A stretch of 64,000 nt of DNA. Source: Cytophagaceae bacterium. Its GTDB lineage: Bacteria > Bacteroidota > Bacteroidia > Flavobacteriales > Flavobacteriaceae. Positions 2,660 to 53,874 of the stretch are shown piece after piece (position 1 is the stretch's first letter; every line of letters begins with the position of its first letter). The position numbers and the translations under genes were made by a program. The notes under the pieces are model-generated. The model saw only the letters and a list, made by a program, of their open reading frames with translations. It did not search any database and was not told the DNA's origin. The stretch is taken from positions 1-64,000 of the forward strand of contig PALD01000041.1 of NCBI GenBank assembly GCA_002710685.1. Direction: 5' to 3'.

Positions 2660-4198
2660 ATGATGTACAGCAAGGTCAAATTGCTTTTTATTTGTTTGAT
2701 ATACATTGTCCCTTTTTTGGCTTTAAGCCAAAAAAGGGACAAACCAAACGTCATACTCATCAATGTAGATGACCTGGGTTATGGTGACCTGGGCTGCTAT
2801 GGGGCCACTAAGGTCAGGACCCCAAATATCGATAAACTGGCAACCGAGGGACTGCGTTTTACCGATGCGCATACGGTTTCGGCGGTGTGCACACCATCTC
2901 GATATGCCCTGCTTACAGGAGAATACCCCGTGAGGAACAATGGGCTTTCGCACGCAATTTTCTCTAGGGATTCCCTGATTATTGATACTGGTAAGTTTAC
3001 CCTTGCCAACGTTTTTAAAAGCAGCGGCTACACTACAGGGATAGTGGGAAAATGGCATTTGGGATTTGGCAAGCAAAGGCCCGTAGACTGGAACGCCCCG
3101 CTTAAACCTGGCCCGTTGGAGCTGGGTTTTGATTATTATTTTGGCGTGCCCGTGCTCAATAGCCATCCGCCATTTGTATATGTGGAAAACCATACGGTCG
3201 TGGGCCTTACAGATGATGACCCCATGGTATATGGCAAGGATGCCGCCACCCTGCCCTATCCAGAAAAATGGAATCGCGGGCTACAGAAACTGGGCGGTGC
3301 AAAAAAAGCCCATGAACTCTACCGCGACTACCTTGTGGGCACAACGCTTAAGGATACTGCAATAGCATTTATAAAAAAGAATAAGCAAAAGCCGTTTTTC
3401 TTATACTTTGCCACTACAAACATCCACCACCCATTTACTCCTGCAAAACGATTTTTAGGCACAAGTGATGCGGGCAGATATGGTGATTTTATCCATGAAC
3501 TGGACTGGATGGTGGGCGAGGTTATGCAAACATTAAAAGAAGAAGGTCTGGATGAGAACACCCTGGTCATCCTAACGAGCGACAATGGCGGGATGCTCAA
3601 CCGCGGTGGGCAGGATGCCTATGCCATGGAACATAAGATCAATGGTAAACTCATGGGTTTTAAGTTTGATGCATGGGAGGGCGGCCACCGTATCCCCATG
3701 ATTGTCCGGTGGCGTGATAAGGTCAAGGCCGGTACTGTATCTGGGCATTTGATAAGCAACGTTGACTTCGTGGCGACCATGGCCGAGCTCGTAGGGCAAA
3801 ATATCCCCAAAGGTAATGCCATTGACAGCCAGCCATTGCTGGCCGTACTTCTGGGAAAGACAGATACAGATTTAAGAACAGAACTTCTCATCGCTCCAGA
3901 TAACCTAGATAATCTGGCTTTGCGCCAAAATAACTGGATGTATATCTCTGGTCAGGGTGGCGGTGGTTTTCATGCCCCTTATGTAGGCATGCACGACCTG
4001 GGAGGGCCAGCAGCCTTTTTCTTTACGGGGCAAACCAATAGTGACATTGCCGATGGCAAGATAAAAGAAGGTGCCCCACCAGGACAGTTGTACAACCTAG
4101 AAGTCGACTTGACCGAAAACAAAAACCTATATGACCAGCATCCTGAAATCGTGGAGAAAATGAAAAAGAGAATCGACGAAATCCTCAATAAAAAATGA
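2660..4198 (+). CDS. Secreted S1-family sulfatase
   Basis: A 512-residue sulfatase with a signal peptide (about 1-23). The formylglycine signature CTPSR is at residues 77-81, so Cys77 needs maturation by an anaerobic or aerobic sulfatase-maturing enzyme not seen here. Metal ligands are suggested by NVDDLGYGD (about 35-43), GKWHLG (130-135) and LTSDNGG (about 307-313). It probably removes sulfate esters from a polysaccharide or oligosaccharide in the periplasm or at the cell surface. Start: ATG at 2660, directly followed by another ATG at 2663. Its stop overlaps the esterase start (ATGA). A perfect 29-nt inverted repeat (2710-2738) is embedded in the signal-peptide codons, encoding the stretch ending LALSQKR. 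Substrate cannot be told from sequence. Confidence 0.92.
   Translation: MMYSKVKLLFICLIYIVPFLALSQKRDKPNVILINVDDLGYGDLGCYGATKVRTPNIDKLATEGLRFTDAHTVSAVCTPSRYALLTGEYPVRNNGLSHAIFSRDSLIIDTGKFTLANVFKSSGYTTGIVGKWHLGFGKQRPVDWNAPLKPGPLELGFDYYFGVPVLNSHPPFVYVENHTVVGLTDDDPMVYGKDAATLPYPEKWNRGLQKLGGAKKAHELYRDYLVGTTLKDTAIAFIKKNKQKPFFLYFATTNIHHPFTPAKRFLGTSDAGRYGDFIHELDWMVGEVMQTLKEEGLDENTLVILTSDNGGMLNRGGQDAYAMEHKINGKLMGFKFDAWEGGHRIPMIVRWRDKVKAGTVSGHLISNVDFVATMAELVGQNIPKGNAIDSQPLLAVLLGKTDTDLRTELLIAPDNLDNLALRQNNWMYISGQGGGGFHAPYVGMHDLGGPAAFFFTGQTNSDIADGKIKEGAPPGQLYNLEVDLTENKNLYDQHPEIVEKMKKRIDEILNKK
2710..2738. repeat. Perfect 29-nt inverted repeat in sulfatase signal-peptide codons
   Basis: Arms of 14 nt (CCCTTTTTTGGCTT and its complement) around a single central T. 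It contains the 17-mer TTTGGCTTTAAGCCAAA that recurs through the window. In frame it encodes the end of the signal peptide and the first mature residues (LALSQKR). Confidence 0.9.
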
Positions 4199-5106
4199 AA
4201 AGGATAGCCTTTGTATTGATCCTATTCCTCATCGCCCACCAAGGCCTGAATGCCCAAGAACATATCATTAAATTGTGGGATGAGGTCCCAAATCAAAATA
4301 AAACCGACGAGAAAGAAAAGATTACAGAAAAAGGAGTAAAACTTATTGCCAACGTACAAGAGCCATTGATTGAAGTCTACCTACCCAGTGCACGATCACA
4401 AACCGGCGAGGCTGTGCTTATTTTTCCGGGTGGCGGTTATCATGTTTTGGCGTATGATTGGGAAGGTCGCGACCTGGCAAAATACTTGAGTAGTCAAGGC
4501 ATTGTAGGAATTGTGGTAAAATACCGTTTACCCATTTCAAAGTCGATTATCAATCCGTCAATCGCGCCTTTGCAAGATGCGCAACGCGCCATGCGCATCC
4601 TGCGCAGTAAGGCTAAAGAATGGCATATTGATGAAAACAAAATTGGGATTATGGGCTTTTCCGCGGGTGGACATCTAGCCTCCACTTTAGGAACGCAATA
4701 TGACGAAAAAGTCTACGAGCCCACCGATGATGCTGATAAACTAAGTGCTCGTCCTGATTTTATGGCGCTCATTTATCCCGTAATCACAATGACAGATTTA
4801 ACGCATGGCGGTTCTAAAGAAGCGCTGATAGGTAAAAATCCCACAGCCGAAATGATAAAAAAATACAGCGGCGAACTCAATGTAAATGCAGAAACCCCAT
4901 CCACTTTTATCGTGCATTCTATGGATGATGATGCTGTGCCTGTTGAGAACAGTTTGCAGTTTCTGGACGCGCTTGCAAAAAACAAAATCTACACTGAAGC
5001 TCACATTTATCCTACCGGCGGTCACGGTTATTCCATGGGAATAGGCAATGCGCAACTAAGCAGCTGGCCCGGATTATTTGTTACTTGGGTAAAAACACTT
5101 CTGTAG
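4195..5106 (+). CDS. Secreted alpha/beta hydrolase (esterase-like)
   Basis: A 303-residue protein with signal peptide (cleavage near LNAQ-EH). The fold is alpha/beta hydrolase of the BD-FAE/esterase type: oxyanion FPGGGYH near 77-83, nucleophile elbow GFSAGGH with Ser156, acid in the HSMDDDAVP segment (Asp245 likely), and His277 in GGHGYS. In polysaccharide-degrading operons such enzymes usually remove acetyl or other ester groups; that role here is inferred from its position after GH172 and sulfatase genes, with which it overlaps by 4 nt. A 19-nt hairpin repeat 6 nt after the stop probably ends transcription. Confidence 0.88.
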   Translation: MKRIAFVLILFLIAHQGLNAQEHIIKLWDEVPNQNKTDEKEKITEKGVKLIANVQEPLIEVYLPSARSQTGEAVLIFPGGGYHVLAYDWEGRDLAKYLSSQGIVGIVVKYRLPISKSIINPSIAPLQDAQRAMRILRSKAKEWHIDENKIGIMGFSAGGHLASTLGTQYDEKVYEPTDDADKLSARPDFMALIYPVITMTDLTHGGSKEALIGKNPTAEMIKKYSGELNVNAETPSTFIVHSMDDDAVPVENSLQFLDALAKNKIYTEAHIYPTGGHGYSMGIGNAQLSSWPGLFVTWVKTLL

Positions 5107-5112
5107 ATGTTC

Positions 5113-5131
5113 TTTTGGCTTAAAGCCAAAA
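5113..5131. terminator. Hairpin repeat between convergent genes
   Basis: TTTTGGCTT-A-AAGCCAAAA, 9-bp arms, in the 35-nt gap between the esterase stop and the AraC gene stop. It is followed by an A-rich tract and preceded by T residues, so it could act as a weak bidirectional terminator. Exact copy of the 17-mer repeat family. Confidence 0.6.
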
Positions 5132-5141
5132 AAATAAAAAC

Positions 5142-6035
5142 CTAATTAAACGAATGCCTGAACTGCACCGGTGAAAGATTTGTCTTTTTCTTGAACAAAG
5201 TGCTGAATGACTGCGCGTGCTCAAAACCCAGCGCGTACGCAATCTCACTCACAGAAAGATTGGTGGTTGACAGTTGCTCCTTAGCCTTTTCTATCAACTT
5301 ATCGTGCAGGTGTTGTTGCGTGTTTTGCCCTGTGTGTATTCTCAGCAAATCGCTGAGATAATTGGGCGACAAATTCATGAGTTGGGCAACATGCTGCACG
5401 GTGAGCCGTTTTTGTTCTGCAGTATTCTCATTGTAATATTGCTCTAGAATGCTTTCAAACTTCTCCAGCAATTGATGATTATGACTCTTTCTGGTGATGA
5501 ATTGCCGCTCGTAAAATCGGTTAGAATATGTGAGGAGCAGCTCAATTTGCGACAGGATAATCTCCTGCGTGTGCTTATCAATATGCTGATATTCTTTCTC
5601 GATTTTTTCTAGGATTGAAATTAAATAATCCTCTTCTTCGGCAGAGAGATGCAGCGCCTCATGAACCGCATACGAAAAAAAAGTATAGCTATTTATCTTG
5701 CCCGCAAGCGGATGACCCAACAGAAAATCCTGATGAAAAATCAATAAAACACCAGAGCCACACTCGGTATTTTTAAGGTCCAGATGTTGCACTTGATTAG
5801 GCGCAGTGAAACTCAAAACACCTTTGTCATAATCATAATGCTGCTGACCGTATCTAATTTTTCCTTTTGCATTTCGCTTAAGCGCAACACAATAAAATTT
5901 ATTTACAAAATGCTCCCAAATCTCATCTTCCAGAAAAATACTTTCTTCAAGATCAATGACACTTACCAGCGGATGTTTAGGTTCTGGTAGCGATAATAAT
6001 CTGTGAAATTGCGAAATGGTTTCTATTGCGTTCAT
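5142..6035 (-). CDS. AraC-family transcriptional regulator
   Basis: A 297-residue cytoplasmic protein. The C-terminal ~90 residues carry the double helix-turn-helix of AraC/XylS regulators: LTVQHVAQLMNLSPNYLSD and LSVSEIAYALGFEHAQSFS, ending in FKKKTNLSPVQFR. The N-terminal ~180 residues resemble the cupin-type ligand-binding half. It lies downstream of the aldo/keto reductase on the same strand, but a hairpin terminator separates them, so it may have its own promoter in the short gap. Control of the neighbouring reductase is likely by habit of such pairs, not shown by any operator I can see. Confidence 0.9.
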   Translation of the reverse strand: MNAIETISQFHRLLSLPEPKHPLVSVIDLEESIFLEDEIWEHFVNKFYCVALKRNAKGKIRYGQQHYDYDKGVLSFTAPNQVQHLDLKNTECGSGVLLIFHQDFLLGHPLAGKINSYTFFSYAVHEALHLSAEEEDYLISILEKIEKEYQHIDKHTQEIILSQIELLLTYSNRFYERQFITRKSHNHQLLEKFESILEQYYNENTAEQKRLTVQHVAQLMNLSPNYLSDLLRIHTGQNTQQHLHDKLIEKAKEQLSTTNLSVSEIAYALGFEHAQSFSTLFKKKTNLSPVQFRHSFN

Positions 6036-6053
6036 GCTGTAATTTATTTAAAA

Positions 6054-6080
6054 AGCCTTTGTACAAAAAGCACAAAGGCT
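6054..6080 (-). terminator. Intrinsic terminator after aldo/keto reductase gene
   Basis: Stem AGCCTTTGT/ACAAAGGCT (9 bp) with a 9-nt loop; on the minus strand it is followed by TTTTAAATAAAT. It lies just 8 nt beyond the reductase stop. Confidence 0.75.
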
Positions 6081-6088
6081 CCTAATTT

Positions 6089-7093
6089 TTAATCTAATAA
6101 TCCCATACTGAATTCATCATAAGGCTCGCCAGTATCAGTTCCCAGAGGTACGATACTTTCTAACCTTGACAAGTCTGCACTGGTCAATTCTATTTGCGTA
6201 GCATTAATATTTTGCTCCACATATTTTCTGCGTTTTGTTCCTGGAATTGGCAAAATCCCCTTTGCCATGATCCACGCTAGGGCCAGTTGAGACGGTGTGA
6301 TATTTTTTTCTTCGGCCATGGTTTCAATAGCATTTACAAGCTCTATATTCTTGTAAAAATGACCTTCCTGAAAACGCGGTATCGCACGACGAAAATCATT
6401 CTCTGGCAAATCATCAATACTTCTAATTTGCCCAGATAGAAAGCCACGACCCAAAGGCGAATATGCCACAAAACCAATTCCCAACTCATTCAACGTTTGT
6501 ATAACTCCGCGCTCCTCAACTGTACGTTCAAAAAGAGAATACTCACTCTGAACAGCCGTGATAGGATGCACAGCATGTGCGCGCTTCACAGTCTCAGATG
6601 AAACTTCAGACAATCCTAGATAACCTACTTTTCCTTCCTTTACCAGTTCGCTCATCGCCTCAACGGTTTCTTCAATAGATGTATTTTTATCAAGGCGGTG
6701 CATGTAATACAAATCGATAAAATCGGTTTTCAGATTTTTTAGCGAACGCTCAACCGCCTTCTTCACATATTCCTTCTTGCCGTTTATCGCCCAAGTAACT
6801 TTGTCATTATCGTCAATCTCCCAGCCAAATTTCGTCGCAATGATGTATTTGTCTCGATTTTCGCCAATAGCTTTCGCGATAAGCTGTTCATTTTTAAAAG
6901 GTCCGTACAGATCTGCGGTATCCAGAAAATTCCCGCCCATTTCAAAAGATTTATGAATGGTGGCAATTGCTTCCTTTTCATCCGCTGGTCCATACATATT
7001 GGCATCTTCAAAGCCGGTCATTCCCATACAGCCTAGACCTATTTTGGGCACAACCAGACCTTCACTTCCTAACTTGATTTTTTTAATTTCCAT
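6089..7093 (-). CDS. Aldo/keto reductase
   Basis: An NAD(P)H-dependent oxidoreductase of the aldo/keto reductase superfamily, 334 residues from the chosen start. The catalytic tetrad is visible: Asp in FLDTADLYG, Tyr in the same segment, Lys in IIATKFG, and His in YYMHRLD. The C-terminal GILPIPGTKR matches the cofactor-binding loop. The open frame extends 16 codons further upstream to 7141, but family members begin as here (MEIKKIKLGSEGL), so I place the start at 7093. Similar proteins reduce a broad range of aldehydes or ketones; no specific substrate can be inferred. An AraC gene follows after a terminator. Confidence 0.9.
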   Translation of the reverse strand: MEIKKIKLGSEGLVVPKIGLGCMGMTGFEDANMYGPADEKEAIATIHKSFEMGGNFLDTADLYGPFKNEQLIAKAIGENRDKYIIATKFGWEIDDNDKVTWAINGKKEYVKKAVERSLKNLKTDFIDLYYMHRLDKNTSIEETVEAMSELVKEGKVGYLGLSEVSSETVKRAHAVHPITAVQSEYSLFERTVEERGVIQTLNELGIGFVAYSPLGRGFLSGQIRSIDDLPENDFRRAIPRFQEGHFYKNIELVNAIETMAEEKNITPSQLALAWIMAKGILPIPGTKRRKYVEQNINATQIELTSADLSRLESIVPLGTDTGEPYDEFSMGLLD

Positions 7094-7189
7094 TTCATTG
7101 ATTTTAGTGATACAAAGGTCTGTAGCAACCCACTTCTGCATGTATGCAAATCACAGAATCACATGAGCAAATCAAGAATATGGATGTTT

Positions 7190-7208
7190 TTTTGGCTTAA
7201 AGCCAAAA
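7190..7208. repeat. Hairpin repeat (TTTGGC...GCCAAA family)
   Basis: TTTTGGCTT-A-AAGCCAAAA, 9-bp arms, intergenic between the reductase start and the GH32 terminator. It stands directly beyond the GH32 terminator and could back it up. Confidence 0.75.
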
Positions 7209-7210
7209 GA

Positions 7211-7239
7211 AAAAGTTCCTGCCAATGACAGGAACTTTT
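7211..7239 (-). terminator. Intrinsic terminator of the fructan operon
   Basis: Stem AAAAGTTCCTG/CAGGAACTTTT (11 bp) with a 7-nt loop, 43 nt beyond the GH32 stop; the minus strand continues with TTTCTTTT. Confidence 0.85.
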
Positions 7240-7282
7240 AACAATCAACTTAAATCATAATTGATGATCAATCAAAAATGAA

Positions 7283-9007
7283 TTACTTCCAGATGCTTTT
7301 AAGTTCATAAACCTCAAGGTGGACCAACTTTGACTTACCCTTGCTCATTATGGAAATCTTATTATTCTCAAGATTTACCAGCGTGCTGACCGGCATAAAG
7401 AAAACACCATCATTTGCAAAGATTTCGAGCCCTGTTCTATCCACATACATTGAAAGTTTAAGTTTCTTCCCATCCGTTTTTAAAGTAGCTTTCTCATCAG
7501 CTACTTGAAGTGTTGCATTTTTTGCATCATAGATGACCTTGACCCCTTTAATATCAAGCGTGATGCTTTCGGTTTCTTGTAAGTCTATTTCAGCCTGTAT
7601 TTCTATCGGTTTCTCACCTTCAAATTCAACAGGAAATGCCGCTTGACCCAGCTCCACATTATTGAATGTGTAGCGCTTACCCCTTAACTTTTTAAATTCT
7701 TCAACGGGCTTTCGTGATAACCTGATACCTTCATCGGTTGAGATTAGTTTTAACTCTGTAGCGATGCCCATACTCTGGTTGAAATCATTCCCTGAGGCTG
7801 TATTTGTTTTCGTCCTGAACCATCCTATCTCAATTTTCCTTCCTTGGGGATCATTAGTAAAGGTTTGTGCGGCATAGTAATCCTGAGTTTGTACACTTGT
7901 TAAACGAGACTCTTCAGGATGAAAGGCCTCCCCATCAAAGGTGCCCACGGCATATTCTCCATTTGCTGCGGTGATCACCCATTTTTTTGCACCGGGCATT
8001 CCCTGTACAGGAAGCTCATAAAGATCTGGGCATTCAAAAAGGTATCTATCATCACCTATTCCTCCTTCTATGGTGCTGGTAAGCTCCCAGTCTTTGAGAT
8101 TCTTAGACGAGAAAAAGTGCATGGTGTTCAACCTGTTTTCTTTTTCTACCCATAATACCATTACCCATTTTTGTTCTGGCTCATACCAGATGACCTTAGG
8201 GTCCCTATTGCCATCTGTCACCTTAGGTACCGCAGGATGATCTAGCCGTTTAAAATTTCTACCATCATTGCTGTAGGCTATACCTTGTATCCAGTCATCA
8301 CTTGATGTAAAAGAAACGACCATCGCCGGTTTATCCTTTGAGCCAAAGCCGCTTGTATTCTTCTTATCCACAACACCACTACCGCTAAAAACCGGTCCAT
8401 ACTCATCTGGATAAAGTGCTTCTCCCACTTCTTTCCAGTGCACAAGATCTTTACTTACAGCATGTCCCCAGTGCATATTTCCCCATTCACTACCATAAGG
8501 GTTGTGCTGAAAAAACAAGTGGTACTCTCCCTCATAATACACCAGGCCATTAGGGTCATTATTCCAGCCGCGTTTTGGCGAAAAATGAATCTGCCCCCGT
8601 TGACTCTCATTGTATAGCTTGTCTTTATCGAGCTCTTTGTTACTCTGCTTGATCAAGCTAAATTCTTTAGCATCAGCTGCCAGACCATCTACTGCCAATT
8701 CTAGGGTCTTGCCCTCCCAGTCACTTATATCTAGATAAGCGTACCAGTCTGGGTTTTCCTCAGCCAATTCTATATCAATCCAGCGTACTTTCTCGCCGTT
8801 CACAAAAACGTCAAGGCGCTTGCGCTCCACGCCATTCTTTACTGGTAGCAAAAGCCATTTTTTCTCTGCTTTGATTGTCTTTTTTTGGCTTAAAGCCAAA
8901 ACAGGAAAATCATTATCAACGCGCACTTCATGCGCCGCCCGCAACGCAGTTGCCGTAAAAACCACGGTCAATGTCGCCATTGCAATCTCTCTAAACTTAA
9001 ATTTCAT
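7283..9007 (-). CDS. GH32 fructan hydrolase with N-terminal DUF4980-type domain
   Basis: A 574-residue secreted glycoside hydrolase family 32 enzyme (levanase/inulinase/invertase group) that cleaves beta-fructosidic bonds and retains configuration. After a signal peptide comes an N-terminal beta-rich module (about 27-120, DUF4980-like), then the five-bladed propeller: WNNDPNG with nucleophile Asp151, transition-state stabiliser RDP with Asp269, acid/base EC with Glu325, then a C-terminal beta-sandwich (about 440-574). It is the last gene of the susC-susD-fructokinase-GH32 operon and has a strong terminator. Exo-acting levan or inulin hydrolase is likely but linkage cannot be read from sequence. 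The 17-mer palindrome repeat at 8883-8901 falls near the N terminus, encoding LALSQKK. Confidence 0.94.
   Translation of the reverse strand: MKFKFREIAMATLTVVFTATALRAAHEVRVDNDFPVLALSQKKTIKAEKKWLLLPVKNGVERKRLDVFVNGEKVRWIDIELAEENPDWYAYLDISDWEGKTLELAVDGLAADAKEFSLIKQSNKELDKDKLYNESQRGQIHFSPKRGWNNDPNGLVYYEGEYHLFFQHNPYGSEWGNMHWGHAVSKDLVHWKEVGEALYPDEYGPVFSGSGVVDKKNTSGFGSKDKPAMVVSFTSSDDWIQGIAYSNDGRNFKRLDHPAVPKVTDGNRDPKVIWYEPEQKWVMVLWVEKENRLNTMHFFSSKNLKDWELTSTIEGGIGDDRYLFECPDLYELPVQGMPGAKKWVITAANGEYAVGTFDGEAFHPEESRLTSVQTQDYYAAQTFTNDPQGRKIEIGWFRTKTNTASGNDFNQSMGIATELKLISTDEGIRLSRKPVEEFKKLRGKRYTFNNVELGQAAFPVEFEGEKPIEIQAEIDLQETESITLDIKGVKVIYDAKNATLQVADEKATLKTDGKKLKLSMYVDRTGLEIFANDGVFFMPVSTLVNLENNKISIMSKGKSKLVHLEVYELKSIWK
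8883..8901. repeat. Hairpin repeat inside GH32 N terminus
   Basis: TTTTGGCTT-A-AAGCCAAAA. In the GH32 reading frame it encodes LALSQ, the same residues and frame as in the sulfatase. Confidence 0.85.
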
Positions 9008-9987: not shown

Positions 9988-10002
9988 GCTTTCGCGAAAG
10001 CG
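9988..10002. repeat. GCTTTCGCGAAAGC palindrome in the susD-fructokinase gap
   Basis: Perfect 14-nt palindrome followed by G, so it contains the recurring 13-mer TTTCGCGAAAGCG. It lies inside the operon, so it is more likely an RNA hairpin or a DNA signal than a full terminator. Confidence 0.8.
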
Positions 10003-10022
10003 AAACAGTCACAGAAAACTCG

Positions 10023-11705
10023 TTAATATCCCGTGTTCTGTACATACAAATCGCGGCTAAAGTTGATTTGCGCCTGAGGGATGGGTAGGTATTCTTCACG
10101 GTTTTTATCAAAATTTGCATTTTGATAATACACAACGTCTTCTGCCTCGTTGGCATAAAATGCATTGAGGACTTCGCTGGCTACACCCCATCTCACGAGG
10201 TCAAAAAATCTGTTACCTTCCATTGCAAATTCCAGGCGTCTCTCCCACCGCATGGCTTTTCTGGCAAAATCTTGGGTCCATGTACAGTTTTGACCATCTA
10301 TGTATGGCGAGATATTCACATTATCACCATATACCAGAGAAACACTATTTGCAGCACGCTGTCTTATCTCATTTATGATGGGCAACGCCTCATCCTGTCT
10401 ACCCAGTTCTATGAGCGCCTCGGCCTTAAATAGCAGGACATCAGCATAGCGTATTTCTATCCTGTTTTTAGAGTTGCCATAAAAGGGATCTATATTTACA
10501 AAACAATCGCATCCTGGAGATACATTTTCTTTTAACGAAGCAAAATAGCCGTATGTGTTAGGAGATCTATTCCAGTTCTCTTCATAGGTGTAATTCTCGT
10601 CATATTTAAATGGCATGCCCGGTATGGCCACGGTATGATAGAGCCTAGGGTCAACTTGTGAAGCATTTAAATTGTTATAGTCAAAATCTGTATCATTATA
10701 GGTTTCAAATTGAGGCAGGCCTTCATCGGTCTTATAGGCATTCACAAGATCCTGACTGGGTTTTTGAAAATCGCAGCATCCAGCCCCTTGTGGTACTGAA
10801 AGAACATCAGAAAAATTGAGTCGGCCATGTAGGGTCCCGTCATTATCTGAAAATTGAATTGCAAAGACTGACTCTGTTCCATTTTCATAAGAGCCGGGTA
10901 GAAAATTATTTGCAAAATCACTTTCCAGGCCGTGGTTCAAAACCATATTTGAAGCGCTAACGACCTCCTCTAGATGCTGATTGTCAATGCTGGTGACATT
11001 ATAATTTTCATCTTGTTGATAGGCTTGATATAACCTTACTTTAGCAAGATAACCATAGGCCGCACTTTTATCAACCCTTCCTATTTCTGGCTGGCTCTCT
11101 GGCAATCCATCAACCGCCATTTGAAATTCACTGGCAATCTTCTGCCACAGTTCATCATTAGTAAACTCTTTATTAGATATGGTACCATATTCATCTGCCG
11201 GAACCTCTTCTGTGATGTAGGGCATGTATTTAAACATGATCTTCAGCATAAAATAAAAGTGCCCCCTTAAAAAATGCATTTCAGCAATTCTTTGAGATTT
11301 AAGATCAAAACTGGATTCATCTATTTGTTCTAATGCCGATAAAGCCCTATTGACCCGTGAGATAGCCACATAGCAATTGTACCAAAACCGGTCTAACTCC
11401 CCAAAATCTGTCCTGATATTCTCTGAAATTTCAAAAAAATGAAACACTTGAATATCATTAGGCCCACTTCCTCCCTTATAGGCGTCATCTGCCCTTACAT
11501 TGCCATATGGCCATAGACTAAAGGGCACATCATAATGGTCATTGCCCAGGGAGGAATATGCCGCAGTTACAAAGCCATCAACATTATCCGGAGTGATTAA
11601 TTGATTTTCAGAAAGAACTGCGTTGGGCTCTTTCTCAAGATAGTCTGAGCATCCCAATAAGGTCAATCCTAAAAGGGTGCAGAATATTTTATATGTTGTT
11701 TTCAT
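10023..11705 (-). CDS. SusD/RagB-family outer-membrane glycan-binding lipoprotein
   Basis: A 560-residue lipoprotein: lipobox LLGC with Cys19, then the SusD_N region (DYLEKEPNAVLSENQLI) and TPR-like helices. C-terminal features RIEIRYADVLLFKAEALIELG, NEIRQRA and MRWERRLEFAMEGNRFFDLVRWG are classic for the RagB/SusD family. It forms the lid on the partner SusC barrel and captures oligosaccharides at the cell surface. It lies 9 nt after susC and upstream of fructokinase and GH32, so oligofructose/levan is the expected ligand (inference from neighbours). Confidence 0.95.
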   Translation of the reverse strand: MKTTYKIFCTLLGLTLLGCSDYLEKEPNAVLSENQLITPDNVDGFVTAAYSSLGNDHYDVPFSLWPYGNVRADDAYKGGSGPNDIQVFHFFEISENIRTDFGELDRFWYNCYVAISRVNRALSALEQIDESSFDLKSQRIAEMHFLRGHFYFMLKIMFKYMPYITEEVPADEYGTISNKEFTNDELWQKIASEFQMAVDGLPESQPEIGRVDKSAAYGYLAKVRLYQAYQQDENYNVTSIDNQHLEEVVSASNMVLNHGLESDFANNFLPGSYENGTESVFAIQFSDNDGTLHGRLNFSDVLSVPQGAGCCDFQKPSQDLVNAYKTDEGLPQFETYNDTDFDYNNLNASQVDPRLYHTVAIPGMPFKYDENYTYEENWNRSPNTYGYFASLKENVSPGCDCFVNIDPFYGNSKNRIEIRYADVLLFKAEALIELGRQDEALPIINEIRQRAANSVSLVYGDNVNISPYIDGQNCTWTQDFARKAMRWERRLEFAMEGNRFFDLVRWGVASEVLNAFYANEAEDVVYYQNANFDKNREEYLPIPQAQINFSRDLYVQNTGY

Positions 11706-11714
11706 AACAGGTTT

Positions 11715-14969: not shown

Positions 14970-14982
14970 TTTCGCGAAAGCG
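14970..14982. repeat. TTTCGCGAAAGCG repeat
   Basis: Exact copy of the 13-mer, in the gap between the hybrid kinase stop and susC. Confidence 0.75.
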
Positions 14983-19901: not shown

Positions 19902-20109
19902 GATTTCTAGAATTTTGTTGGGTCAAAGCTACCCCACATCTTGCTCCCTCCACCCGACATTTAGGTGTCACCTATATGTCAAGATAAGGCAAACCATTAT
20001 TTTACGTTGCATTTATAGCCTATTTTGACAAAAAAGGGCCTGAATATACCTGGGCTTGCGCCAAAATTATTTAACCATAAATTCAAGTCAACCTTCTACT
20101 TAATCCTTA

Positions 20110-21579: not shown

Positions 21580-21645
21580 CACATTTAATCATAAAATAAC
21601 CTTTGGCGCAAGCCACAAATCCCTGATTTTCCATAAGATTGCTCC

Positions 21646-23415: not shown

Positions 23416-23434
23416 TTTTGGCTTTAAGCCAAAA
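23416..23434. terminator. Hairpin repeat forming the whole gap between convergent genes
   Basis: TTTTGGCTT-T-AAGCCAAAA begins on the base after the metallophosphoesterase stop and ends one base before the stop of the opposing gene. With T and A tracts on each side it can act as a small bidirectional terminator. Confidence 0.7.
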
Positions 23435-23435
23435 A

Positions 23436-32017: not shown

Positions 32018-32112
32018 TAACACTGCCACGGGCAGTAATTTCCTTATTGAAAATAACTAATCAAAGCATAAATTTTTAGCCTTACGGCGAAAGCTTGCAA
32101 AATGCAAACCCT

Positions 32113-43543: not shown

Positions 43544-43582
43544 ATTTTTCTTTTTTGATTGATTGATATACAAATAGGTATG

Positions 43583-43637
43583 CCTTTCGGCGAAAGTGTT
43601 ACAAATACCATTATTTTTTTGGCAAAAGCCAGAAAAA
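43583..43637. repeat. Two palindromes upstream of the DUF4870 gene
   Basis: CCTTTCGGCGAAAG at 43583-43596 and a longer TTTTTTTGGC-AAAA-GCC inverted repeat (one G-T wobble) at 43614-43637. Two different members of the palindrome families lie 18 nt apart in one gap. Confidence 0.65.
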
Positions 43638-45168: not shown

Positions 45169-46622
45169 TTTCCGATTTTAAGAAACCTGTGCAAAAGGTC
45201 ATTCACCTCCCCAGAAATCCTAAGCCTGTATACCACCATAATATATACAGTGCTTATAATACTGGCCTTGACGGCAATTGAAACAAGGGGATGCCAGTTA
45301 AAATCCCAAAAGAAGAATAAGCCAAAGAGAACAATCATTATAATACTTACCACAGCAGAATCACGTGTAAATGGCTGTAAATGGAATTTCTTATACACCA
45401 CGTATATCTTTGCACCACAATAGCCCACCGAGGCTATAAATGTGGCGATTGCAGCACCATTGATCCCTAGCCAGGGTATAAAGACGGTATTGAGCACGAC
45501 CGCGATTACAACCATACCCACCCCCAGTACAAGTACCAGCCTATAATAATCACTGTTGTAGATTATTGCATTGTTATTACCCATGATATTTTCAAGCAAT
45601 TTTGCCATAGAGACCAGCAAGACCACATAAAGTCCCTTAGAATAATTGGGATCTAGCATGAGGTACAATTGCTTGATGTTGCAGAGTATGAGCAGGAAAA
45701 TAAGCCCCGAAACGATAAAAAGCGTTAATGAACTTTTTTTATAAAGGTCCTCAAGCGCTACATGGTTTTTTTCATTGAGCAACCTGGCCGTAAGAGGATA
45801 TGTAATTTGGTGCATCGCCCGTGAAGGCACCGCAATCACGGTGGCAATATAGATTGCGACCGCATAAAAGGCCACATTTTCAATAGGGACCATCTTGCCT
45901 ATCATGAACATATCAATCTCCAGGATCATGACCGCAACAGAACCCGCCACGATGATAAGGGCGCTATATTTTATGACCCGGCTTAGGTCATGGGGAAAAA
46001 CAAGAACAAACCTGGGCTTCTTGAGCTTAAACGCATAGAACATCATGATGACCGTACGCAAACCATAACTCACGCCCAGTAGCGCCATAAAGGCTTTAAA
46101 ATCAATCCAGTTCATGGCAAATAGTATAAGCAGCAACGTGACCGCAAACCTATGAAAGACTTCTTTCATAAAATTGCCCATCACACTTTGCAGCTGTATC
46201 CTTGCCCAGGCATAAAAAACCTCAAAATAGGCCATGGCAATACCAATCAGGAATATCAAGGGAATATAAGGTGCTACAACTTCATTCTCAGTCGTGAGGA
46301 AATCTGCAATTTGATCATAGAACAAGATCAATATGGCTGTCGCCGGAATAATCACCGCAATGGGCAATGCCAACATCAGGGTAAGGAATGAATCCTGGTC
46401 CTTTTTGGCGTAAGCCGTATAAAATTTTACAATGGTACTATGCACACCAAAGGCAAGTACCGGCATGAGAATGGACGCCGCGCTCAATAAAAAGGAGACG
46501 AGGCCATAATCTTCATCCTTAAAAAAATGTACATATAGTACCAAGGTGTTCACCGCCCCTATCGCAAAGCCCAGATAGGTTGTGATCATGTTTTTTAAAG
46601 ACTGTGTGGCGACGATTCCCAT
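45153..46622 (-). CDS. Polysaccharide flippase-like membrane protein (Wzx/MATE-type)
   Basis: A 489-residue inner-membrane protein with about 14 hydrophobic helices. It starts VATQSLKNMITTYLGFAIGAVNTLVLY and shows the repeated two-bundle pattern of the polysaccharide biosynthesis/oligosaccharide flippase superfamily. It probably moves lipid-linked sugars across the inner membrane. Its start overlaps the stop of the glycosyltransferase by one base (TAATG), so the two are translationally linked. Two Arg/Pro residues precede the stop, which lies inside the opposing terminator. Confidence 0.88.
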   Translation of the reverse strand: MGIVATQSLKNMITTYLGFAIGAVNTLVLYVHFFKDEDYGLVSFLLSAASILMPVLAFGVHSTIVKFYTAYAKKDQDSFLTLMLALPIAVIIPATAILILFYDQIADFLTTENEVVAPYIPLIFLIGIAMAYFEVFYAWARIQLQSVMGNFMKEVFHRFAVTLLLILFAMNWIDFKAFMALLGVSYGLRTVIMMFYAFKLKKPRFVLVFPHDLSRVIKYSALIIVAGSVAVMILEIDMFMIGKMVPIENVAFYAVAIYIATVIAVPSRAMHQITYPLTARLLNEKNHVALEDLYKKSSLTLFIVSGLIFLLILCNIKQLYLMLDPNYSKGLYVVLLVSMAKLLENIMGNNNAIIYNSDYYRLVLVLGVGMVVIAVVLNTVFIPWLGINGAAIATFIASVGYCGAKIYVVYKKFHLQPFTRDSAVVSIIMIVLFGLFFFWDFNWHPLVSIAVKASIISTVYIMVVYRLRISGEVNDLLHRFLKIGKSRPE

Positions 46623-47917
46623 TATATGCTGGTGATGGTTTTTTTAATGACCTTGGCAAGTTGCCCCGTGAGGTTCTTGCGATAAAACCTATCGATATCC
46701 CCCGTGCACCGCAGCTCTTTTCCTGCTCTATATGCCTCAAAAAGTTCAATCACAAAGGCCTTGATGGCCTCTTCATCCTGATAGGTAAAGCACCGGCCCG
46801 AGTCACATTGCTCAACAAGCTCAAAAAAGTCAGCTCCTGACGGGCCCACGGCAAGTATGGGCCTTCTTGCGGCAAGATATTCAAAGACTTTTCCTGGGAT
46901 TATGACCTGTGTCTCTGGTGTGTCAATCTCGATGAGCAGGAGGGCAAAAGCCTCATGTTGCGCCCTTAGGGCTTCAGGGTGTGTGAGGTATCCCGTGAGT
47001 TCCACGTTTTCTTTTAGGCCATGGCTATCCAGCGATTGCAGTACCGTTTCACTTACCTTGCCCGCAAGTTTTATTTTTAGCCTTTCGGCGAAATCAAAGC
47101 GTTCTTGTTTTATCTGGGCCAGGATTTTCCAAAGGATTTCCGGGTTGCGTTTTGACAACAAAGACCCTATATGTGCAAGGGTAAAATACACACCTGGCTT
47201 GCCCTGTGGCACCTCTTCTTCATCAAATCCATTTGTGATACAGGTTACGGGAGACTGGGTTTTCTTTTCAAGGTCCCGCTTTGTAGATGGGCTGGTCACA
47301 ATCACCGCATCTGCGGCATTTAGCACTTCGTGCTCTAGCGCCTCGTGTTTTTTTCGGGATTTTTTTGTGAGCTTTAATTGCTCATGGTAACCTATGGTGG
47401 TCCATGGATCCCTAAAATCAACCAACCAGGGTAGGTTTTTTTTTCGCTTGAGCGAAAGACCTATCAAGTGCAGGCTATGTGGCGGTCCTGTTGTTATAAT
47501 GGCATCCACGGGATTTTCATCAAGGTAACCCCCCAGGAAACCAACTGATGGCCCTACCCAAAGCCTGCGTGCGTCAGGAATGAAAAAATTGCCCCGTATG
47601 TACAACATCATGCGCTGCATAAGGGATTGTTTTTTATGCTCTTGAATAATCCCGGCGCTTAGGTTATTGGTTTGCTTTTTTGAGAAGAGACTGGCCAGTG
47701 CATAGGGTTCCTTGATAGGATATTTGAGAATCTTGACCGCGCCGGGCACCTCCTCCAGCAGCGAGTTATCCTGCAATGGATAACTGGGATTTTCTGGTAT
47801 GTACACTACGGGCTCGATGCCAAATTGTGGCAGGTATTTTACAAACTTCAACCATCGCTGTACTCCCGGCCCTCCTGCTGGGGGCCAATAATAGCAGATG
47901 ATCAAAACTCTGGTCAC
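46622..47917 (-). CDS. Glycosyltransferase, GT4-like
   Basis: A 431-residue cytoplasmic or membrane-associated transferase. N-terminal LIICYYWPPAGGPGVQRWLKFVKYLPQFG is typical of GT4-type enzymes acting in surface polysaccharide synthesis; SLLSKRNPEILWKIL and the segment PGKVFEYLAARRPILAVGPSGADFFEL carry the C-terminal donor-binding EX7E-like region. Donor and acceptor cannot be told. Cotranscribed with the flippase and preceded by the YfhO gene (21-nt gap). A CCTTTCGGCGAAA repeat lies at 47081 and a TTTCGCT-TG-AGCGAAA palindrome at 47442-47457. Confidence 0.88.
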   Translation of the reverse strand: MTRVLIICYYWPPAGGPGVQRWLKFVKYLPQFGIEPVVYIPENPSYPLQDNSLLEEVPGAVKILKYPIKEPYALASLFSKKQTNNLSAGIIQEHKKQSLMQRMMLYIRGNFFIPDARRLWVGPSVGFLGGYLDENPVDAIITTGPPHSLHLIGLSLKRKKNLPWLVDFRDPWTTIGYHEQLKLTKKSRKKHEALEHEVLNAADAVIVTSPSTKRDLEKKTQSPVTCITNGFDEEEVPQGKPGVYFTLAHIGSLLSKRNPEILWKILAQIKQERFDFAERLKIKLAGKVSETVLQSLDSHGLKENVELTGYLTHPEALRAQHEAFALLLIEIDTPETQVIIPGKVFEYLAARRPILAVGPSGADFFELVEQCDSGRCFTYQDEEAIKAFVIELFEAYRAGKELRCTGDIDRFYRKNLTGQLAKVIKKTITSI

Positions 47918-47938: not shown

Positions 47939-50401
47939 TTAATCTTCAATGAGGGGTTCTTTTCTCCTGGCCCGCTTGATGCCATAGAAGATACCTCCTA
48001 GAATAATGAGCACGAGCAGGATATTTGAGGCCAGGCTAATGGTACCGCCCGTCTTGACTACCTGGGGTTCAAACTTAAACTCAAGGGTATGTTCACCGGC
48101 AGGGACCATCATGGCGCGCAACATATAATCTGCCCTGAAATATTCAGATTTGTTGCTGTCAATATAGGCATTCCATCCATTGGGATAATAGACTTCACTA
48201 AAAACAGCGAGCCTCTCAATGGATGAACTTGAACGGTATGTGAGGTGATTGGGCTGGTGGGCAACTAATTTTATGCTCGCCGTGGAGTCCTGTGGGAAGA
48301 TTTTTGCCGGAAGGCGATTCTCAAACTCTTCATTGATTATGGCAGTCTGCCTGGTATTAAGACTGTCAATTGACAATAGTTCTTGGTTTGCATCTGGAAC
48401 AATCTTCACGTTTTGCACAAACCATGCATTACCGTTTGCATTGGGGTTGCGCTGTACGGTTTGCTGACCATCTTCCCCTTGGTTCATCACATACTTTACG
48501 TTGAGCATGTTGAGGGGTTCTGTCTTGTTCTTATATATATAAAAATCTGCAATATCCTGCATTCTTGCGGGTTTTGCGCCATGATACCCGCCTATTGAGT
48601 TAAAGAAATAGCTAGACCTGCCGCCGCCATTGAACTCATTGTATGGGTTACCTGCAAGTACCCTGAAATGTGTTGTGTCCTTAAGGATTTCCTTATCCTG
48701 CGGAGTGGATTGAAATGGCTGGTTCATTAACCTGGCAGATACAAAATTATCAGCATTTACATATCTTTTATCTACCTGCACAAGGTCAAAAAGGATGAGG
48801 ATACCCACGATGACAAGCACGATGTTTTCAGAAAGCTTTTTCTTGATATAGAAGTAAAGTGCGCCTGCCACGAGCAGGACCAGTATCAATGTTTTTATGA
48901 CATCAGCGGTGTATATTGCCTTACGGTCCTCACGGATGGCATTGATAAAGTCCATGCCAAAATTTTGAATAAAATAGGCATCGCTATCTCCACCAAAATT
49001 AAAAAGTGTCCCTTTGAACAGGAGCAATATCAATGCTAGGCCACCGGTAATGATTGTGGTCCATTTTAGGGCTTTTAATTTTTTATCATCAGCTTCAAGA
49101 TGCTGCAACATCTTCATCAACCCAAAAACAGCAAGTATGGGAACACACAACTCTGTGATTACCTGTATGGATGTAACCGCCCGGAACCTGTTGTACAAGG
49201 GGAAATACTTGACCCATAAATCAGTAAACCAACTCAAATTACCGCCATAGCTCAACAATAGTGAGAGAACGGTGCCCCCCACCAGCCACCATTTTAACCT
49301 GCCCTTTACTAGGAACAGGCCCAGCACAAAAAGGAATATCACCACTGCGCCTATGTAGGCAGGTCCTGATACCCCGGGCTGTGCGCCCCAGTAATACAAT
49401 CCAAACTGTCCATACACATCCTCAACTTGATTTGCGGGCACTTTTTGCTGTCGCAAAAATTTTGCGAAAGCGCTATCTGGGTCATAGGGTTCGGCGTTTG
49501 AACCGCCAAAAAGACCGGCTACAAACAGGTCTAGCGTTTCAGGGATGCCATAACTGTACTGGTTGATATATTCGGTATCCAGGCCAGCTTCCTTGTCTTG
49601 TTTTTCAGTACCATCAGGGTTTATGGTTATCTCACTTTTGCCCCGGGTGCTAAAAGCAGTGTACTCGCTGGTGGCCATGAGGCTGGCTGCATTGGCACCC
49701 AGCGCGAGCAGCCCAGCAAGTGCCAGGACCCCGATGCTCATAAGGTAATGTTTGAGTTCTTTTTTACGGATGGCGTCCACGAGATAGGCAATGCCCAGGA
49801 TAATGACCAGGATAAAGAGATAATAGGTCATCTGCACGTGGTTTGCCACAATCTCGAGCGCGGCTCCCAGGGCAGTAACTATGAAGCCTAGAATGTATTT
49901 TCGCCGAAAGGTTAAAATTATACCGCTCAAAACCAATGGAAAATAGGCCACGGCATGTGCCTTGCTGTTATGTCCCACGCCCAGGATCACGATGAGATAT
50001 GTTGAAAACCCAAAGGCAAGTGCGCCCAGCCCGGCATAACGCCAGTCTAGCTTGAGCGAAAGCAATAAAATATAGAAACATACAAAGCCCAGAAAGACAT
50101 AATCTGCCGGCCGGGGTAGAAAACGTATGGCTAGATCTAGTTGTTTAATCCAGTTATGGGGATATTTTGCCCCCAGTTGATAGGTGGGCATCCCGGCAAA
50201 TGCAGTATCCGTCCAGTAGGGTTCTTCTCCTGTTTTTTCCCTAAAGTCCGCCTGTTGCCTTGACATCCCGGCGTATTGTACGATGTCACTCTGGTAGATT
50301 TTCTTACCTTGAAGTACGGGACTAAAATATACAAGTGTGACAACAACAAAAACTGCCAACATTGCAATATGGGGCAGCAATCTCCTTAGTGAAAACGCCA
50401 T
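47939..50401 (-). CDS. YfhO-family multi-pass membrane protein
   Basis: An 820-residue inner-membrane protein with about 12-13 helices in the first 600 residues and a periplasmic beta-rich part (about 570-780) before a last helix. VFVVVTLVYFSPVLQGKKIYQSDIVQYAG and DTAFAGMPTYQLGAKYPHN are hallmark segments of the Bacteroidota YfhO group, which is related to GT-C-type membrane glycosyltransferases. In Gram-positives YfhO helps modify lipoteichoic acid; here a role in sugar decoration of envelope polymers is inferred from the neighbouring flippase and transferase. Lies upstream of both on the same strand. Confidence 0.85.
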   Translation of the reverse strand: MAFSLRRLLPHIAMLAVFVVVTLVYFSPVLQGKKIYQSDIVQYAGMSRQQADFREKTGEEPYWTDTAFAGMPTYQLGAKYPHNWIKQLDLAIRFLPRPADYVFLGFVCFYILLLSLKLDWRYAGLGALAFGFSTYLIVILGVGHNSKAHAVAYFPLVLSGIILTFRRKYILGFIVTALGAALEIVANHVQMTYYLFILVIILGIAYLVDAIRKKELKHYLMSIGVLALAGLLALGANAASLMATSEYTAFSTRGKSEITINPDGTEKQDKEAGLDTEYINQYSYGIPETLDLFVAGLFGGSNAEPYDPDSAFAKFLRQQKVPANQVEDVYGQFGLYYWGAQPGVSGPAYIGAVVIFLFVLGLFLVKGRLKWWLVGGTVLSLLLSYGGNLSWFTDLWVKYFPLYNRFRAVTSIQVITELCVPILAVFGLMKMLQHLEADDKKLKALKWTTIITGGLALILLLFKGTLFNFGGDSDAYFIQNFGMDFINAIREDRKAIYTADVIKTLILVLLVAGALYFYIKKKLSENIVLVIVGILILFDLVQVDKRYVNADNFVSARLMNQPFQSTPQDKEILKDTTHFRVLAGNPYNEFNGGGRSSYFFNSIGGYHGAKPARMQDIADFYIYKNKTEPLNMLNVKYVMNQGEDGQQTVQRNPNANGNAWFVQNVKIVPDANQELLSIDSLNTRQTAIINEEFENRLPAKIFPQDSTASIKLVAHQPNHLTYRSSSSIERLAVFSEVYYPNGWNAYIDSNKSEYFRADYMLRAMMVPAGEHTLEFKFEPQVVKTGGTISLASNILLVLIILGGIFYGIKRARRKEPLIED

Positions 50402-51897: not shown

Positions 51898-51918
51898 GTT
51901 TTTTGCCATCACTACAAT

Positions 51919-53037: not shown

Positions 53038-53041
53038 AAGA

Positions 53042-53071
53042 AAAAGCATCAGCCGTGAGACTGATGCTTTT
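53042..53071. terminator. Bidirectional terminator
   Basis: Stem AAAAGCATCAG/CTGATGCTTTT (11 bp), 8-nt loop, followed by ATTTTTT on the plus strand and TTTCTTTT-like bases on the minus strand. Serves the GNAT gene and the opposing SIMPL gene. Confidence 0.85.
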
Positions 53072-53094
53072 ATTTTTTAAACTTACTTGTATTG

Positions 53095-53769
53095 TTACAT
53101 AACCAGTGCAAAGTTTACCTGAACGTTTGCCGTAATGGTCATTTCGCCTGGAGCGAGGGATTCTTGAGTGTCAGAAAAGGCCTTTGCCATCCTTACCTGC
53201 GGCATAGGTTGAGGAGCCTCTGTGCCCGCCTCAGATATTTGAATTGCAGTACCTACCTTTTGACCCAGTGCAGCAGCATATTCCTCAGCTTTCATCTTGG
53301 CATTTGCAATAGCTTTTTTACGGGCCTGGCTTTCATACTCCTCCATTTTAGAAGAAGAAAAAGAAATACCCTGCACCCCGTTTACACCAGTATCAATCAA
53401 TTTGAGCATTACCTCATCATAGCGTTTCAACTCCCTTAATTTAATCGAGATGGTCTGCGTTGCGCGATAGGTAGAGACCTTGGTCTTGTAATCCTGGGTC
53501 CTGTACAGCCTCACATATTGTGTTTGCACATCATTTTGCTTTATGCCCAGTTGCTTGGTAAGGTCCAGTATGTTGTCAACGGTGGCATCGTTTTCTTTCT
53601 TTACCGTTGCAGCTTCCTTGCCCTCATTTTCAACATTGATGGTCAGGGTTACTTCATCTGGTACCACCTTTACCTCTCCCGTACCGTTAACATTGACGGT
53701 GTGTGGGATTTCTTGTGCAATTCCTGTGGACATAACCAAAAGTATAAATGGTAATACTAACTTTTTCAT
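53095..53769 (-). CDS. SIMPL-domain (DUF541) periplasmic protein
   Basis: A 224-residue exported protein with signal peptide ending TGIAQ. The mature part starts VNVNGTGEVKVVPDEVTLTINVENEG, the hallmark of the SIMPL/DUF541 family, and has ARKKAIANAKMKAEEYAAALGQKVG, the conserved helix. In E. coli the relative YggE is linked to oxidative stress tolerance; the biochemical role is unknown. Single gene with its own terminator. Confidence 0.9.
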   Translation of the reverse strand: MKKLVLPFILLVMSTGIAQEIPHTVNVNGTGEVKVVPDEVTLTINVENEGKEAATVKKENDATVDNILDLTKQLGIKQNDVQTQYVRLYRTQDYKTKVSTYRATQTISIKLRELKRYDEVMLKLIDTGVNGVQGISFSSSKMEEYESQARKKAIANAKMKAEEYAAALGQKVGTAIQISEAGTEAPQPMPQVRMAKAFSDTQESLAPGEMTITANVQVNFALVM

Positions 53770-53855
53770 GGTTCAAAATTTTATTGTTTTAAACCAAATT
53801 AGTCAAAACGCATACCAAAAAACCGGACCAGCACTTTTTTAATACGCTTTTAAGA

Positions 53856-53874
53856 TTTTGGCTTTAAGCCAAAA
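53856..53874 (-). terminator. Hairpin repeat after rhomboid gene
   Basis: TTTTGGCTT-T-AAGCCAAAA, ending 3 nt before the rhomboid stop codon on the plus-strand map. Same 17-mer repeat; likely terminator for the rhomboid gene. Confidence 0.65.

Follow-up and report, generated by a model that had tools for sequence, protein, structure and literature searches.

A hairpin motif with covarying stems recurs across a Flavobacteriaceae genome

Introduction

Why does one near-palindromic 17-mer recur seven times, letter for letter, in 64,000 nt of bacterial DNA? The stretch that raises this question, hereafter the window, is the whole 64,000 nt analysed from contig PALD01000041.1 of the Flavobacteriaceae assembly GCA_002710685.1 (genome G000, "this genome" below). 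An earlier note on this DNA had attributed the seven copies, together with looser forms of the same inverted repeat, to selection for a hairpin rather than to copying of one sequence. We find that the 17-mer is one sub-form of a larger hairpin signal, whose recurring unit consists of 5'-TTY, a 3-bp G+C-rich stem that is usually closed by a C-G pair, and a loop that is either GNAA (4 nt) or TTWAA (5 nt). The conserved feature of this genome-wide signal is a hairpin, most likely of single-stranded DNA, which may act in self-recognition or DNA uptake.

The 17-mer is part of a wider signal

The seven exact copies all lie at the coordinates given in the earlier note. The near-copy placed there at 22227 exists with one mismatch, its true coordinates being 22228-22244. 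The looser forms are likewise present, but their coordinates had been given as the start minus one, and a further place at 1257-1272 had been overlooked. A split of 12 places into seven in genes and five in gaps agrees with our script-called genes, which put five in gaps and seven inside or on the edge of a gene. With up to two mismatches allowed, the 17-mer gives 17 strand-matches at nine places in the window, where 100 dinucleotide shuffles averaged 0.08 (palindromic sites may be counted once per strand), and TTTGGC-N2-6-GCCAAA is found at 13 places against a shuffle mean of 0.12. Across the whole assembly (4.99 Mb in 80 contigs, contamination listed as 8.79%) there are 144 exact 17-mers and none of a reversed control pattern, so the copies are neither confined to the window nor close to the number expected from shuffled sequence.

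The exact word was absent from the 59 relatives searched, 12 of them congeners. For TTTGGC-N3-6-GCCAAA the count is 492 in this genome, with 1 for the control, and between 2 and 32 in each of 12 congeners, with controls of 1 to 13. Among the 397 family genomes searched, only 20 have any match to TTTSGCTTWAAGCSAAA; this genome has 227 copies and none of the other 396 has more than 14. One gene of the window has its nearest named loci in Christiangramia (84% protein identity), with 72-73% in three congeners that were compared. Among the 2.9 million contigs of a viral collection, the 17-mer was found in nine stretches and CGCTTTCGCGAAAGCG, a word taken up below, in 41.

Stem, loop and flanks

Site statistics were taken from a sample of 41 pieces of the genome, 864 kb in total, in which genes were called with custom scripts and no standard caller (coding fraction 0.90). 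TTTGGC-Nk-GCCAAA occurs in it 61 times at k=4 and 49 times at k=5, with 3 at k=6, none at k=0-3 and 3 in total at k=7-14, where the expectation for each spacing is 0.32; TTTCGC-Nk-GCGAAA is likewise found at k=4 (25 sites) and k=5 (21 sites). The loops had been described as varying, and more than one is indeed in use, but their lengths are restricted to these few. At the pair adjoining TTT, matched arms (GGC/GCC 110 and CGC/GCG 46, together 156) stand against 2 mixed G/C arms, and in the TTT/AAA arms single mismatches are frequent and compensated double changes nearly absent. Conservation thus acts on pairing at the G-C positions and on the letters themselves in the flanking T/A, so that the arms are conserved, as had been claimed, but only the G-C part of them as a stem. 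Half-sites outside hairpins are near the expectation of a maximal-order Markov model and above that of a low-order one. These counts bear on a palindromic operator, read on double-stranded DNA by a transcription or nucleoid protein. The 17-mer alone, a near-perfect duplex palindrome, would agree with it, but an operator is made very improbable by the two spacings, by a covariation too strict for independent half-sites, and by the majority of sites (249/405) being oriented, non-palindromic GNAA sites.

The motif sets were tuned on the same sample that was counted; pairing was measured on every TTYNNNGNAANNN on both strands with no pairing required, which gave 2333 contexts. In 406 of these the stem is complementary throughout, against 57.6 expected from triplet frequencies, and in 408 two of its three positions are, against 337. 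The strongest stems, with expected numbers in brackets, are GGC/GCC 142 (14.3), CGC/GCG 101 (11.5), GCC/GGC 70 (4.3) and CCC/GGG 9 (0.3), and further enriched stems are CGC/GCA 24 (4.8), CGC/GCT 23 (5.0), CAC/GTG 7 (0.3), CGT/ACG 6 (0.2) and GCT/AGC 6 (0.5). Seven of the nine strongest combinations are exact complements and the other two are unpaired at the outer pair only; the 22 combinations listed include 11 complements and are mixed at the low end (n up to 6). Of the closing pairs, 322 are C-G, 19 T-A and 3 G-C. A-T/T-A is found 13 times and G-T/T-G 4 times at the middle pair, and the outer pair is looser, with A-T/T-A 7, G-T/T-G 19, and C-A and C-T 25 each. Different complementary triplets thus serve as stems and their G/C pairs covary, in line with the proposal that a hairpin is kept.

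The excess of pairing is specific to the loop. The paired share is 17.4% for GNAA, 4.1% for GNCA, 3.9% for TNNA, 3.2% for ANAA, 1.9% for GNGA and 2.0% for unrelated loops. The excess at 5-nt loops is chiefly TTTAA/TTAAA, with 125 of 149 contexts paired, and loops of 2, 3 or 6 nt have no paired excess in the sample. Positions -3 and -2 are T in 89% and 86% of paired hairpins and in 33-34% of unpaired contexts; beyond the motif there is no pairing in the flanks, just a T/A lean. DNA folding yields the expected stem-loops; the bare 13-mer is unexceptional (65 of 200 shuffles fold equally well), and the energy model does not separate GNAA from GNGA. We take d(GCGAAAGC) and GNA/GNNA loops with a C-G closing pair to be unusually stable in DNA mini-hairpins, whose loop and closing pair are like those found here; but that is a physical motif and not a genomic system. 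If the loops are so stable, template switching at them could perfect imperfect hairpins as a mutational by-product, which would account for pairing across several different stems. We regard this as unlikely, because the unpaired TTY flank is required, sites are evenly spaced in other genomes (see below), and of 299 genomes four have 408-857 copies of GCTTTCGCGAAAGC, a word of the same kind, as against 0-89 in the remaining 295.

A second palindromic sub-form, CTTTCGSCGAAAG, occurs 31 times in the 864 kb and overlaps two GAAA hairpins; six of its 14 gap copies lie in divergent gaps.

Hairpin sites in the window

The window holds 42 hairpin sites, and no stretch between sites exceeds 5.8 kb. The sites and the one-mismatch copy are listed by coordinates and strand (no sign where none is assigned).

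418-430 (-): GGC/GCC hairpin, loop GCAA; glycerate kinase gene
822-834 (-): GCC/GGC hairpin, loop GAAA; glycerate kinase gene
1257-1272 (+): TTTGGCGAAAGCCAAA; glycerate kinase gene, the place overlooked before
2716-2732: exact 17-mer; 5' edge of sulfatase-like gene
5114-5130: exact 17-mer; convergent gap
7191-7207: exact 17-mer; gap
8884-8900: exact 17-mer; within GH32 gene (LALSQ)
9990-10005: TTTCGCGAAAGCGAAA; gap
14970-14982 (+): CGC/GCG hairpin, loop GAAA; gap
15336-15348 (-): GGC/GCC hairpin, loop GAAA; gene
17502-17514 (+): GGC/GCC hairpin, loop GAAA; gene
19219-19231 (+): CGC/GCG hairpin, loop GAAA; gene
20053-20065 (-): GGC/GCC hairpin, loop GCAA; gap
21602-21614 (+): GGC/GCC hairpin, loop GCAA; gap
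21690-21706: TTTGGCTCAAGGCCAAA; phosphoesterase-like gene
22228-22244: one-mismatch 17-mer; same phosphoesterase-like gene as 21690
22626-22638 (-): CGC/GCG hairpin, loop GGAA; gene
23088-23100 (+): GGC/GCC hairpin, loop GCAA; gene
23417-23433: exact 17-mer; convergent gap
23978-23994: exact 17-mer; within alkaline-phosphatase-like gene (LALSQ)
25132-25144 (+): GCC/GGC hairpin, loop GAAA; gene
25454-25466 (-): GGC/GCC hairpin, loop GCAA; gene
25588-25600 (+): GCC/GGC hairpin, loop GTAA; gene
30428-30443: TTTGGCCCAAGCCAAA; gene
31620-31632 (+): CGC/GCG hairpin, loop GCAA; gene
32079-32091 (-): GCC/GGC hairpin, loop GTAA; gap
34585-34600: TTTGGCTGTAGCCAAA; glutamate synthase small subunit-like gene adjoining the large-subunit gene, substitution relative to 12 congeners
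37828-37840 (+): CGC/GCG hairpin, loop GAAA; glutamate synthase large subunit gene
43582-43594 (-): GCC/GGC hairpin, loop GAAA; gap
46404-46416 (+): GGC/GCC hairpin, loop GTAA; gene
47080-47092 (-): GCC/GGC hairpin, loop GAAA; gene
47442-47457: TTTCGCTTGAGCGAAA; gene
48303-48315 (+): GCC/GGC hairpin, loop GGAA; gene
53857-53873: exact 17-mer; gap, 4 nt from stop codon
54750-54762 (-): GGC/GCC hairpin, loop GAAA; gap
56907-56922: TTTGGCAAAAGCCAAA; divergent gap
57327-57339 (-): GGC/GCC hairpin, loop GTAA; gene
58207-58219 (-): GCC/GGC hairpin, loop GTAA; gene
58390-58402 (+): GGC/GCC hairpin, loop GAAA; gene
59182-59194 (-): GCC/GGC hairpin, loop GTAA; gene
59326-59338 (+): CGC/GCG hairpin, loop GAAA; gap
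62431-62446: TTTGGCTAAAGCCAAA; gene
63784-63796 (+): GCC/GGC hairpin, loop GTAA; gene

The 17-mer at 2716 is nested in a longer inverted repeat (2706-2742) with perfect 18-nt arms (ttgtcccttt...aaagggacaa flanks).

Distribution in genes and gaps

All forms combined, the sample holds 406 sites in 864 kb, a density of about 470 per Mb or one per two kb, from which some 2,300 sites can be extrapolated for the genome. The sub-forms differ in where they lie. Exact 17-mers are found mostly in gaps (33 of 40, with 2 at edges and 5 in genes), other palindromic sites are in gaps in 44 of 116 cases, and the remaining GNAA sites are mostly in genes (201 of 249, with 45 in gaps and 3 at edges). In both compartments the excess is large. 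Coding sequence contains 77 palindromic forms, 17-mers included, where 20 synonymous-codon shuffles gave 1.9 on average and never more than 4; the gaps contain another 76, where order-3 Markov sequence gave 0.05. GNAA sites number 236 in coding sequence against 4.4 in synonymous-codon shuffles, and 71 in gaps against none. Such strong over-representation in genes and gaps alike is a trait of DNA uptake sequences (DUS).

Windows with a GC content below 0.38 have 2.5 sites per 10 kb (4 windows) and those at 0.44-0.47 have 5.75 (55 windows), with a Spearman correlation of 0.29 (P 0.006), although such a deficit is partly expected for a G+C-rich motif. Ten proteins were scanned from three long, low-GC stretches free of sites; the matches included an Eco57I-type methylase, an SNF2/PLD helicase, a phage integrase and a HipA kinase, and four of the ten had no match. 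Other long site-free stretches in the sample have ordinary GC. The longest one listed for the sample, L135:888-7714, carries the Eco57I-type methylase beside the SNF2/PLD-domain helicase and is likely a defence island.

A fold of DNA or of RNA

In genes, the GNAA hairpin lies 96 times in the sense and 140 times in the antisense orientation (P 0.005), and in co-oriented gaps the numbers are 20 and 23. This distribution has to be set against a hairpin acting at the mRNA level as a 3'-end stabiliser, a processing site or an unusual terminator. Such a role would suit the exact 17-mers, most of which are in gaps, and the position of the gap copies, since 18 of 31 palindromic ones lie within 20 nt of a stop codon against 8.3 expected (for the 17-mer 9 of 21 against 4.0, and for GNAA sites 10 of 27 against 5.3); it would also suit an outer stem pair at which G-T/T-G outnumbers A-T/T-A. 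But most GNAA sites are in genes and show no preference for the sense strand, enrichment is lacking for GNGA loops, the middle pair shows no preference for G-T, and the sequence after the stem is A-rich with no T-tract, so that the features of an intrinsic terminator are absent. An mRNA role therefore appears rather unlikely. Passages of PMC13155455, whose main text contains neither 'bacteroid' nor 'flavobact', describe inverted repeats near transcription terminators; some gap copies here likewise lie near stop codons, but unlike those repeats the motif has no T-tract, most GNAA sites are in genes, and there is no sense preference.

The missing GNGA excess, the lack of a sense preference and the counts at the middle pair together favour a reading in DNA over one in mRNA. 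The outer-pair counts weigh slightly against a DNA fold, even though C-A and C-T are more frequent still, and they lowered our confidence in it a little; we still think it probable, by a good margin, that what is conserved is a hairpin of DNA and not of RNA.

Origin of the in-gene sites

A usable orthologue in 400 kb of the congener G005 was available for 76 of 306 in-gene sites, the other 230 being dropped (another orthologue comparison dropped 152 of 205). None of the 76 sites has an insertion or deletion (indel) in the motif, whereas 6 of 380 flank windows do, and five of the 76 sites are also present in G005. Identity to G005 is lower in the motif than in its flanks, both for nucleotides (0.565 against 0.647, P 1.2e-4) and for amino acids (0.559 against 0.674, P 1.4e-4). 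Selecting sites by motif in one genome itself lowers identity somewhat, which makes the excess over shuffles the weightier evidence. A gltD-like gene and a purD-like gene (the latter named from its own sequence rather than from a family search) show no gaps around the motif when each is aligned with its counterparts in 12 congeners, in one of which purD is divided between two contigs. In the former the lysine of I-K-A, kept in 11 of 12 congeners, is leucine here; in the latter the two residues after D-L, or its counterpart, are A-T here. Judged from these alignments, the in-gene sites were gained by substitution and at a cost in amino acids, and insertion is rejected as their origin. Gain by substitution rather than insertion is a further trait that the in-gene sites share with DUS. 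At one homologous place (L023:6654 and its orthologue in G005 C1) CTTTCGCCGAAAG is found here and CTTTCGCGAAAGC in the congener, possibly a change of sub-form at a kept site.

A mobile small repeat copied by insertion would explain the high copy number and the species specificity, whether as a repetitive extragenic palindromic (REP) element with its RAYT, a miniature inverted-repeat transposable element or another small dispersed repeat. REP and REPIN elements are repeats of 20-40 bp that are copied by insertion and tied to a Y1 (RAYT) transposase. They resemble the present motif in being short hairpins that have a conserved flank and occur in many copies (PMC3733652, PMC3116915). Y1 transposase matches were found in the motif-rich genomes G240, G276 and G022, but there are none in this genome or in the motif-rich G224, the 76 in-gene sites compared have no indels, and the flanks show only their T/A lean. 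REP/RAYT is thus rejected for this genome, and a mobile repeat of any kind is extremely unlikely.

The same grammar in other genomes

Other Bacteroidota carry the same hairpin grammar, with stem preferences that differ between genomes. Of 299 Flavobacteriaceae, four carry GCTTTCGCGAAAGC in high numbers (857, 664, 578 and 408 copies), this genome has 89 and the rest have 0-19; the common extension of this word, CGCTTTCGCGAAAGCG, presents TTT-CGC-GAAA-GCG on both strands. In the GCTTTCGCGAAAGC-rich genomes sampled (G240, G276, G427 and G224), CGC/GCG is the sole strongly enriched paired stem. In G462, from another order of the class, GCC/GGC is found 9 times against 1.1 expected and GGC/GCC 7 times against 0.7, and 11.5% of GNAA contexts are paired against 1.9%; in G784 GGC/GCC is found 10 times against 0.5, with 3.95% paired against 2.2%. 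The congener G005 has just a trace (CGC/GCG 13 against 0.6; 3.0% paired against 1.9%), and 80 named Flavobacteriaceae loci, pooled, have almost no excess of GNAA pairing (2.30% against 2.17%). Among 395 Bacteroidota, a draw without the GCTTTCGCGAAAGC-rich genomes, TTTSGCGAAAGCS is found 413 times here, 107 times in G462 and at most 53 times in others. A general excess of all GC-rich hairpins across the family was rejected, the signal being limited to some genomes.

Spacing is strikingly even in three other genomes belonging to two genera. The coefficient of variation (CV) of spacing is 0.567 for 61 sites in G240 and 0.443 for 33 sites in G427, with none of 2000 simulations as low in either case, and 0.565 for 22 sites in G276 (P 0.0035), which is of the same genus as G427; simulated values for the three are 0.94-0.98. 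In this genome even spacing is weak, although there is a deficit of spacings under 800 bp (P 0.016). Even spacing would also be expected of a chromosome landmark, that is, of hairpins read within the cell for replication, single-strand priming, repair or compaction at about one per few kb, comparable in role to HIP1 or Chi but read as a fold. Sites on either strand relative to genes and the poverty of low-GC windows suit a landmark as well, and it serves nearly as well as uptake. But with 470 sites per Mb here and 45 in the congener G005, close relatives would be deprived of an essential landmark, and the stem preferences vary between genomes; a landmark is therefore a possibility that we entertain tentatively.

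Hairpins of Salinimicrobium were rejected as the same motif, being embedded in longer shared flanks: loci L042, L044, L045, L048 and L049 (about 5600-7700 and 11400-13500) carry clustered, REP-like hairpin repeats (CTCCTT..AAGGAG, CGGATT..AATCCG, CCTGAA..TTCAGG). A link of the motif to a carried machine, suggested by clusters spaced 933 nt apart in low-copy genomes, was also rejected. These belong to an island of copper/heavy-metal type (L210-L220) that several low-copy genomes have in common, across genera, and in which the positions of GCTTTCGCGAAAGC are conserved; in four genomes, two of these positions are separated by 933 nt. In L210 the island encodes an RND pump, an outer-membrane efflux protein, a multicopper oxidase and P-type ATPases; it may have come from a motif-rich host.

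Possible use as an uptake or self-identity signal

The use that we favour for the hairpin, with a probability of about 0.4, is that of a self-identity or uptake/recombination signal. A putative reader would recognise the hairpin wherever the chromosome or incoming DNA exposes a single strand, and would act on either strand. DNA with at least one hairpin per few kb would be preferentially taken up, kept or recombined, and the sites would spread by molecular drive as DUS do. A drive of this type would account for the even spacing, the cost to proteins, the stem preferences and the scarcity of sites in foreign-looking DNA. Passages of PMC1939737 describe significant even spacing and in-gene copies of DUS, those of PMC1939737 and PMC2346458 discuss gap copies as terminators, and there are dialects between taxa (PMC3630211). 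The DUS of Neisseriaceae and the uptake signal sequences (USS) of Pasteurellaceae, as far as these passages go, run to hundreds or thousands of copies that lie in genes as well as in gaps, as here, and they have most of their distributional traits in common with the hairpin.

Several observations weigh against this use. Known uptake sequences, in the passages of PMC1939737, are linear words and not palindromes, whereas here the fold is conserved and the stems vary, keeping their pairing rather than their letters. Spacing in this genome is weakly even (CV 0.930 for all sites against 0.982, P 0.125; P 0.048 when palindromic sites are taken alone), and GNAA sites alone show no even spacing here (P 0.34). 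In G224 spacing is just suggestive (CV 0.686, P 0.07), and the evenness in G240 is reduced when only the exact 14-mer is counted (CV 0.732, P 0.025). ComEC was found in seven of seven genomes, motif-rich or motif-poor, and so does not discriminate. The crowding of palindromic gap copies near stop codons fits an RNA role too, and the in-gene hairpins lean towards the antisense strand.

Among other iterated words, HIP1 of cyanobacteria shares with the hairpin signal its iterated palindromic words and its alternatives in some species, but in the passages of PMC4390886 it is a fixed octamer enclosing methylase sites, whereas the motif of this genome has variable stems and loops and no fixed internal palindrome. 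For Riemerella columbina, passages of PMC7965970 report that own DNA is preferred and offer candidates only as k-mer counts. Searches of the open-licence literature found no established DUS for Bacteroidota; five forms of the motif as exact strings were absent from it, and topical searches returned nothing on such a motif in Flavobacteriaceae. In Rfam, at gathering thresholds, the window matched only a tRNA, and the hairpin motif matches no curated family.

Iterated genome words (uptake sequences, Chi, HIP1) are known mainly as strings of letters. Here covariation, as it is used to prove RNA folds, shows that the object kept is a hairpin, and kept at a cost to protein sequence. It is conceivable, though doubtful, that in some Bacteroidota a DNA hairpin (TTY, 3-bp stem, GNAA) placed every few kb serves as a fold-based code on the chromosome, with stem preferences varying from lineage to lineage, and that a machine reading single strands uses it for self-recognition in transformation or recombination. 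An uptake or self signal defined by its fold would, if real, be the first to our knowledge. The finding makes sequence-selective natural transformation, or another reader of single-stranded DNA, testable in Bacteroidota, and hairpin sites are a possible marker for recently acquired islands.

Neighbouring genes in the window

Between 7283 and 17825 the window encodes a GH32 protein, a PfkB kinase, a SusD-like protein, a SusC-like receptor and a hybrid two-component regulator with a Peripla_BP_4 sensor, which together probably form a fructan utilisation locus.

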